Positions 15,447 to 16,877 of a stretch of DNA of 64,000 nt are shown here, piece by piece. Numbering within the stretch: position 1 is the first letter of the stretch; each line of letters starts with the position of its first letter. Source of the DNA: Thermoflexus sp. (GTDB lineage Bacteria; Chloroflexota; Anaerolineae; Aggregatilineales; Aggregatilineaceae); the NCBI GenBank assembly GCA_020724465.1, contig DYGX01000001.1, positions 62,001 through 126,000 on the forward strand, read 5' to 3'. The notes under the pieces were generated by a model. It made no database searches, had not been told where the DNA came from, and was given only the letters and a program-made list of their open reading frames with translations. A program made the position numbers and the translations under genes.

Positions 15447-15475
15447 TTGACAAGGTATGGTGACCGTGCCATAAT
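15447..15475 (+). promoter_or_regulatory. Strong sigma-70-type promoter of the leader RNA
   Basis: A perfect -35 TTGACA (15447-15452) and a CATAAT -10 (15470-15475) with exactly 17 bases between. The start of transcription would be near 15482, about 190 bases before the next full gene. Confidence 0.75.
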
Positions 15476-15548
15476 CTTGATGACCGGCTCGCTGAGGGGT
15501 CGGTGCTTTTTCTACCTTGCCATCTCAAAAAAGAAGGAGGTGGTGTCG

Positions 15549-15605
15549 ATGCATGATAGTAGTATCACGACCGGCGCTGTGACACCCCTCCTTCAGATGA
15601 AGTAG
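15549..15605 (+). CDS. Putative 18-residue leader peptide
   Basis: ATG at 15549 follows an unusually perfect AAGGAGG ribosome site by eight bases. The peptide is MHDSSITTGAVTPLLQMK and stops at TAG 15603-15605. Its second half is encoded by the left arm and loop of the 14-bp hairpin, so ribosomes reading it would open that structure. It has no run of a single amino acid that would point to a classical amino-acid attenuator, although Thr and Ser are frequent. It may be a regulatory leader or a genuine small protein. Confidence 0.5.
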   Translation: MHDSSITTGAVTPLLQMK

Positions 15606-15630
15606 TTGGTGTCACAGCGCCACCATAGAG

Positions 15631-15660
15631 GACCCCAGCCCCGGCTGGGGTCTTCGCTTT
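15631..15660 (+). terminator. Terminator-like hairpin before the AIR-synthase gene
   Basis: Stem GACCCCAGCC / GGCTGGGGTC (10 bp, two-base loop), then TTCGCTTTT. The T-tract is interrupted, so termination may be partial, as expected of an attenuator. It sits 11 bases before the next start codon. Confidence 0.6.
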
Positions 15661-15670
15661 TGAGAGACCG

Positions 15671-16699
15671 ATGATGAATCGACTGCCTGCCGGAAAGCTT
15701 CCAACGCATCTGCTCGACGCGCTGCTGCGCGAACTGCCCCTCGGGGAGCGCGTGCGTGTCGGCCCTGCAGTAGGCGAGGATGCCGCCGTGATCGATATGG
15801 GCACTCGCTATCTGGTCGCGAAGACTGACCCGATCACCTTTGCCACCGACGAAATTGGCTGGTACGCGGTTCAGGTCTGCGCCAACGACATCGCGACGAT
15901 GGGCGCGCAGCCACGCTGGTTTATGGCAACGGTCCTGCTGCCCCATGCCAGCGCCACCGAAGACCTGGCGCGCCAGATTTTGGGACAGATCGGACACGCG
16001 TGCGAGGCGCTGTCGATCGGAGTCGTCGGGGGGCACACTGAGATCACGGTCGGTTTGGAACGCCCGGTGGTGGTGGGGTGCATGCTGGGCGAAGTTGAGA
16101 AGGAGGCGCTGATAACCACCAGTGGCGCGCAGCCGGGCGACGTGCTGCTGCTCACCAAGGGGGCTCCGCTTGAGGCGGCGTCAATCCTGGCACGCGAATG
16201 CGCGGCTGACTTGCGCGATCTCGTCCCGGCAGGGGTGTTGGAGCGGTGCGCGCGCTACCTGCACGATCCGGGCATCAGCGTGGTTCGCGATGCGCGGATC
16301 GCGGTCGAGGTGGGCGGCGTAACCGGTATGCACGATCCCACCGAAGGCGGCGTCCTGGCTGCGCTGTGGGAGATGGCTGTGGCGTGCGGGCATCGCCTGG
16401 AAGTCGACCTGCACGGCAGCGATGGCCCATGGTTGCCGGACGCGCTGGCGATCTGCCATGCCTTAGGGCTGGATCCGGCGGCATCGATTGCGTCGGGCGC
16501 CTTGCTTCTGGCGGTGCGTCCTGAAGCGGCGGAGCGGCTCCGCGAACGCTACAGACAAGAGGGTATCGCGGTGTTTGCACTGGGCCGTGTCTGCGAGGGC
16601 GACACGCTTGTGGTCGACCCGGCCGGCCAGCGACTGCCCTGGCCGCAGCGCGATGAAATCGCCCGTTTCTTTGATGAGTCTCACGCGAATTTGAGGTAA
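15671..16699 (+). CDS. AIR synthase-related (HypE/SelD-like fold) protein
   Basis: 342 residues; two adjacent ATG codons (15671, 15674) after GAGAG. The N-terminal half has the PurM-type ATP site (VGEDAAVIDM, then the VCANDIATMGAQPRWF segment) and the C-terminal half the paired domain (GVTGMHDPTEGGVLAALWEMA). This is the HypE / SelD / ThiL superfamily of ATP-dependent dikinase-like enzymes. It is not classical HypE, because the C-terminal Cys needed for carbamoyl transfer is absent (it ends SHANLR). It is not SelD, because the N-terminal Cys/Sec-Gly motif is missing. The substrate is unknown. An unusual structured leader with its own promoter lies directly upstream and probably controls it. 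Confidence 0.75.
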   Translation: MMNRLPAGKLPTHLLDALLRELPLGERVRVGPAVGEDAAVIDMGTRYLVAKTDPITFATDEIGWYAVQVCANDIATMGAQPRWFMATVLLPHASATEDLARQILGQIGHACEALSIGVVGGHTEITVGLERPVVVGCMLGEVEKEALITTSGAQPGDVLLLTKGAPLEAASILARECAADLRDLVPAGVLERCARYLHDPGISVVRDARIAVEVGGVTGMHDPTEGGVLAALWEMAVACGHRLEVDLHGSDGPWLPDALAICHALGLDPAASIASGALLLAVRPEAAERLRERYRQEGIAVFALGRVCEGDTLVVDPAGQRLPWPQRDEIARFFDESHANLR

Positions 16700-16717
16700 A
16701 TCGGCGCGCGTTTCGCT

Positions 16718-16746
16718 TTGCTCTGCATCTTCCTTAGGGGTACAAT
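16718..16746 (+). promoter_or_regulatory. Possible hppA promoter
   Basis: TTGCTC (16718-16723) and TACAAT (16741-16746) are 17 bases apart. The -35 is a weak match; the -10 is good. It leaves a leader of about 125 bases before hppA, in which I see nothing else recognisable. Confidence 0.35.
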
Positions 16747-16877
16747 TCGGACGGTCACCTCGTTGGCGGCGCGCGCGTTAGTTGCCGCTTCAGGCGGTTG
16801 GCCGTCATCATGCTCACATTGCCACACAAGTTGCTCGATGTCTTGGGCTGCCTTGCCCACTAGGAGGGGTTCGTCAG

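Follow-up and report, generated by a model that had tools for sequence, protein, structure and literature searches.

Introduction

In mRNAs of the hok type, the nascent RNA hides its Shine-Dalgarno sequence (SD) in a transient pairing that is displaced by a later arm. SR1 and SgrS, which are dual-function small RNAs or small mRNAs, combine a stand-alone promoter and terminator with one short open reading frame (ORF), and in the RepY/RepZ leader of IncI plasmids, translation of a leader ORF opens a stem and a pseudoknot. Motif classes have been defined for RNAs with upstream ORFs (uORF), including ilvB-II and fthC, and for RNAs with small ORFs (sORF) (PMC11109978). The Chloroflexi-1 motif (RF01698), a candidate structured RNA described from Chloroflexus aggregans, is represented in Rfam (PMC2864571). 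Few RNAs have been described so far from the Chloroflexota, and the element reported here adds a small gene that is missing from Rfam.

We analyzed this element in a 64,000-nucleotide stretch of Thermoflexus sp. DNA (the window), where the original prediction had proposed an attenuator, coupled to translation of a short leader ORF, that governs expression of the downstream gene. Our analysis bears out one part of this proposal, a short ORF, conserved and translated, that is coupled to competing pairings; control of a downstream gene is not borne out. The element is apparently a widespread, undescribed small RNA gene of the Chloroflexota. It constitutes a new family, and the kinds of RNA that it resembles, structured small mRNAs and dual-function RNAs, are already known.

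Results

Architecture of the element

The promoter, strong SD, 18-codon ORF, pairing A, hairpin B and terminator were each found where the original prediction had placed them, all on the + strand. The promoter, TTGACA-17-CATAAT (15447-15475; TTGACA at 15447-15452, CATAAT at 15470-15475), has a TG ahead of its -10 and agrees with the consensus at 11 of 12 positions. Between it and the SD, near the start of the RNA, lies a terminator-like 5' hairpin (15483-15504) with CTTTTT behind it (to 15510). This combination (15483-15510) is genus-limited, occurring in G000 and G001 only, and other members have different 5' hairpins; overall, the 5' leaders of homologues fold better than mononucleotide shuffles (mean z -1.7). 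A conserved GCCATC/GCTATC motif (15519-15524) precedes the SD. GCCAT is invariant in the family alignment A1 and GC-AT is strongly conserved among 99 sequences, a conservation for which neither A nor B accounts.

The SD, AAGGAGG (15534-15540), is followed by a bulged U and the spacer GGTGTC, and together they make up the 5' strand of pairing A (15534-15547). The spacer is conserved despite being merely the distance between SD and start codon. The ORF (15549-15605) encodes MHDSSITTGAVTPLLQMK in 18 codons and terminates, with TAG, at the base of the 3' arm of B. The 5' arm of B (15573-15586) contributes its last six nucleotides (15581-15586) to the 3' strand of A as well, and the CCTCCTT in the loop of B (15587-15593) pairs with the SD as part of A or, possibly, of a pseudoknot. 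The 3' arm of B (15608-15621) forms 14 perfect pairs with 15573-15586. An intrinsic terminator follows (15628-15661), consisting of a hairpin (15628-15655) with a 12-bp stem and a T tail. Compared with dinucleotide shuffles, the region has a far more stable fold (z -6.2, 0/200). Outside the element lies a gene related to AIR synthase (15671-16699, PF00586/PF02769; hereafter AIR), which is its neighbour in some genomes of the family only.

Distribution across the Chloroflexota

Among 61 genomes searched at the DNA level, strong matches to the block came from 16 of the 18 that belong to the window's family; their alignment contains an invariant SD and spacer (AAGGAGGTGGTGT), the ORF, hairpin B and a terminator of variable sequence. 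The first covariance model (R1) reached beyond the family to two homologues elsewhere in the order, each lying ahead of AIR, and gave no matches when applied to sequence upstream of AIR or hppA in the order's other families. Further covariance searching recovered the block widely among relatives: the R2 model matched 220 of 396 Anaerolineae genomes, nearly always in single copy. Across the phylum, R2 matched 58 of 400 genomes and R3 matched 69 of 400, some of them in families outside the Anaerolineae. Matches in other Chloroflexota families are weaker than those in the Anaerolineae, and most outside families, which were absent from R3 training, score higher with R3 than with R2. In the window's own order the element was found in 19 of 154 genomes; it is rare outside the family and missing or undetected in most.

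At the gathering cut-off, Rfam 15 matched only tRNAs in the flanks of the window element and 20 homologue loci, and relaxed thresholds yielded only chance-level matches. No description of the element was found in the open-access literature on Chloroflexota RNAs. In family f83 (L166:501-595, 948-1192), the element lies tail-to-tail with a 23S rRNA gene, about 350 nt from its 3' end; the copies in G582 and G759 are each located some 500 nt from the end of a contig.

A predicted stand-alone transcription unit

Among 155 homologues, 141 have a best promoter match of 10-11 out of 12 positions, compared with 1 in shuffles, and TTGACA is exact in 136. A terminator-like hairpin stands behind B in 146 of 154 homologues compared with 3 in shuffles under a stricter scan, a looser scan having given 79/155 in shuffles. 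The element is intergenic in 37 loci of the class, where the nearest downstream ORFs are often convergent; examples on the opposite strand, named by eye, are phosphofructokinase-, rhodanese- and HNH-like. In common with the sORF class (PMC11109978), its start and stop codons are conserved and its placement is not one that would control a single main ORF. In common with dual-function small RNAs, it has its own promoter, its own terminator and an ORF whose translation is inferred from the conservation of its frame.

Two competing pairings

Pairing A joins AAGGAGG-[U]-GGUGUC to GACACC-CCUCCUU (15534-15547 with 15581-15593) in 13 pairs with one bulged U. In the window A and B overlap by about 6 nt, and they are therefore competing pairings. 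The original prediction that the two folds exclude each other holds strictly for the overlapping part of A only; the outer part, in which the SD pairs with the loop of B, might form alongside B, giving an H-type pseudoknot.

Compensatory changes were found in both stems among relatives. In an alignment of 99 copies, which was fitted to B, double changes occur at 14 of 14 pairs of B (226 cells compared with 58 in shuffles), with a covariation score of 0.481 (0.195 when shuffled); these counts lean towards B because the members were found by models trained on it. A is in none of the models, and neither it nor the ORF frame, promoter and terminator were modelled as such in the searches. For the inner six pairs of A across the same 99 copies, pairing holds in 92% of cells and double changes occur in 54 cells compared with 24 in shuffles. 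A set of 18 sequences shows changes on both sides at nine pairs of B and three of A. The arms of G038 have a different sequence but still form 13 of the 14 pairs of B and all 13 of A. Pairing with the genome's own partner outperforms partners swapped between genomes (z -14.5 for A and -30 for B), in shuffle tests that are weakened by the relatedness of the sequences. Conservation of the stems and the short ORF in relatives, on which the original prediction had staked itself, is thus strong.

A conserved reading frame with a variable peptide

The ORF has 18-19 codons in every family genome that carries the block and 14-23 codons in 154 of 155 homologues, in which the other reading frames stop early (median 4 codons). 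The distance from the start codon to the arm of B is 29, 32, 35, 38 or 41, and that from the arm to the stop codon is 13, 16, 19, 22 or 25 (95/99). Lengths on either side of the arm thus vary in multiples of three, which shows that the frame is under selection. The stop codon lies at most 2 nt from the 3' arm of B in 145 of 155 homologues.

An alternative reading is a small mRNA in which the conserved peptide of 14-21 residues is what matters and the folds merely tune its dose. The strictly kept frame is consistent with this explanation, as are the weak purifying selection on the peptide (dN/dS-like ratio 0.45) and the recurrent residues, with D, S and S close to the N terminus and a terminal R or K (a frequent pattern being MDxSSxx-SAVASP/L-xxR/K). 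However, the core residues fall on paired RNA and the peptides differ widely between families. In addition, serine codons are almost all AGU or AGC, which suggests a preference at the RNA level. We regard a peptide-centred function as the less probable account, though one to be taken seriously.

The loop follows its own Shine-Dalgarno sequence

Between the SD and the 16S tail there is a match of 9-13 nt in 144 of 155 homologues, so that pairing A would compete directly with the ribosome. The tail, GGATCACCTCCTT, was identical in all nine genomes whose 16S end was found; the 16S gene was not found in the window's own assembly. The CCTCCTT loop had been described in the original prediction as a copy of the anti-Shine-Dalgarno core of 16S rRNA, a description that comparison with relatives does not favour: the loop is not invariant, and its changes track the element's own SD. 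It reads ACCCCTT in G012 and is also altered in G153, each remaining complementary to its own SD, and in G038 the SD GAGGAGG is paired with the loop CCUCCUC. Pairing with the element's own SD accounts for the loop sequence better than copying of 16S rRNA does.

These substitutions also bear on the idea of a trans-acting small RNA, whose loop would mimic the 16S 3' end (AUCACCUCC/CCUCCUU) and bind the SDs of other mRNAs, with the ORF being secondary. Such a role would suit the stand-alone setting, the strong promoter and the terminator, and a stretch of at least 8 nt that is the same as in the 16S tail occurs in the arm and loop of 68 of 155 homologues compared with 0 in shuffles. However, the core of A swaps A-U for G-C together with its own SD though the sampled 16S tails are identical, and the 16S-like stretch is absent in several members from other classes. 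Because loop and arm follow their own SD where the SD changes, a role in cis is favoured over the targeting of other mRNAs, which we consider unlikely.

Relationship to the downstream genes

A translation-coupled attenuator, in which the progress of the ribosome over the ORF decides passage beyond the terminator into AIR, was the interpretation offered by the original prediction. As in trp-type leaders, a short translated leader ORF stands ahead of a terminator, and in 12 genomes, from three families, AIR starts about 10-70 nt behind the terminator. In the window, it begins about 10 nt behind the T tail and a promoter scan revealed no other promoter in between; AIR would thus need read-through or be poorly expressed, and in this genome it may be reached by read-through of the terminator. 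The encoded protein scores below the model cut-offs for HypE, SelD, ThiL and PurM and belongs to an unassigned subfamily.

Several observations nevertheless speak against attenuation. In 18 genomes, whether AIR-bearing or AIR-less, no upstream partner for the 5' arm of the terminator outdid shuffled controls (ranks 10-100 of 100 shuffles, the arm being improperly located in G007 and G038), which leaves no conserved antiterminator. AIR follows the block in ten family genomes and is absent behind six of 16 family copies, all six of which retain the block with its terminator and have hppA directly behind it. In the class the next gene is often convergent. The family and class loci have no co-directional downstream gene of consistent function, and many homologues have no co-directional gene at that place at all. 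No regulatory codon run was found among 155 homologue peptides. The hypothesis of an AIR leader was rejected on the persistence of the block in AIR-less genomes and the lack of an antiterminator, and we hold attenuation of AIR to be very improbable.

On an hppA tree, some forks of which are weak, the AIR-less genomes are scattered and do not form one group, which suggests that AIR was lost several separate times while the block persisted. Behind the six copies without AIR, the start of hppA is about 240-390 nt away from the block, beyond the terminator; a promoter-like sequence was seen by eye ahead of hppA in G012, and a scan of the window (16700-16877) detected no sigma-70-like promoter before hppA. 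Control of hppA by the element is not favoured.

Finally, a type I toxin-like mRNA with its SD hidden in the nascent RNA would share the metastable SD-blocking pairing that a later hairpin replaces, as in hok-type mRNAs, but this identity is improbable in the extreme, since the homologue peptides are by inspection short, polar and not membrane-spanning, and the element is single copy in most genomes.

Predicted states of the Shine-Dalgarno sequence

The computed energies are -19.6 kcal/mol for the SD with the 16S tail, -23.5 kcal/mol for A and -27.9 kcal/mol for B. The SD core pairs with the ORF segment with a mean probability of 0.78 in an RNA that extends only to the stop codon; at full length the value falls to 0.08 because B takes the arm. 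From these calculations, A is likely to be short-lived and to prevent initiation up to the point at which B is made. In full-length folds without pseudoknots, the SD is mostly paired, chiefly to upstream sequence (132/155), and an upstream anti-SD serving as a third arm was found in 23 of 155 homologues with 11 expected, little better than shuffles. In most Anaerolineae, an H-type pseudoknot between the SD and the loop of B could form; it would gain more than 9 kcal/mol over B alone in 121 of 155 homologues, before any loop penalty, and is impossible in the members of other families that were examined (L161, L164 and L169). With a ribosome parked on the stop codon, simple constrained folding did not shift the state of the SD, and A was not re-formed.

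Discussion

Both pairings, the frame, the position of the stop codon, the promoter, the terminator, the single copy and the stand-alone setting, established here by computation, describe an element that is probably a free-standing small RNA gene with a translated ORF, whose SD would be held by A in the nascent RNA until B forms. The folding order and the timing of translation, which we infer, would be as follows. Transcription from the element's own promoter would give an RNA of roughly 180 nt that ends at its own terminator and contains an ORF of 14-21 codons behind a very strong SD. As the RNA emerges, the SD and spacer would first pair with the arm inside the ORF, hiding the SD in A. Once the last arm is made, just ahead of the terminator, hairpin B would capture the shared arm from A, and the SD would then be free of A or weakly held, either by the loop of B in a pseudoknot or by upstream pyrimidines. 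A ribosome reading the ORF would open B and halt at the foot of its 3' arm, so that the fold would both report translation of the ORF and be reset by it.

Single-copy RNAs that are kept in hundreds of species across the families of a phylum usually have a basic role. A more speculative and less likely reading is that of a vertically inherited, single-copy Chloroflexota RNA that senses the translation apparatus, either free 30S subunits or the speed of initiation. Its internal copy of the 16S tail would compete with the ribosome for its own SD, and no adjacent gene would be regulated. With the ORF, the SD and both competing folds contained in a single compact stand-alone gene, the element can be tested with simple reporters. 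The locus also carries a caution: a leader-like layout beside a gene need not mean regulation of that gene.

Among known systems, the Chloroflexi-1 RNA (RF01698) is a structured-RNA candidate from the same phylum, and no Rfam model matches the element. In the RepY/RepZ leader, too, translating a short ORF opens a stem and possibly a pseudoknot, but the element lacks a downstream rep gene and its pseudoknot would hide the ORF's own SD. Leader-peptide attenuators of the trp/ilv type share with the element a short ORF with a strong SD, stems that have one segment in common and a terminator behind them. In contrast to these attenuators, the element has no antiterminator, consistent downstream gene or regulatory codon run, and its stop codon abuts the second stem. 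The hok-type mRNAs resemble it in the transient hiding of the SD in nascent RNA until a later arm displaces the pairing, whereas the element encodes a polar peptide and is kept in single copy across many families. Like SR1 and SgrS, it has its own promoter and terminator and one short ORF within a structured RNA; unlike them, its SD is one strand of the switch and the frame of its ORF passes through the hairpin.
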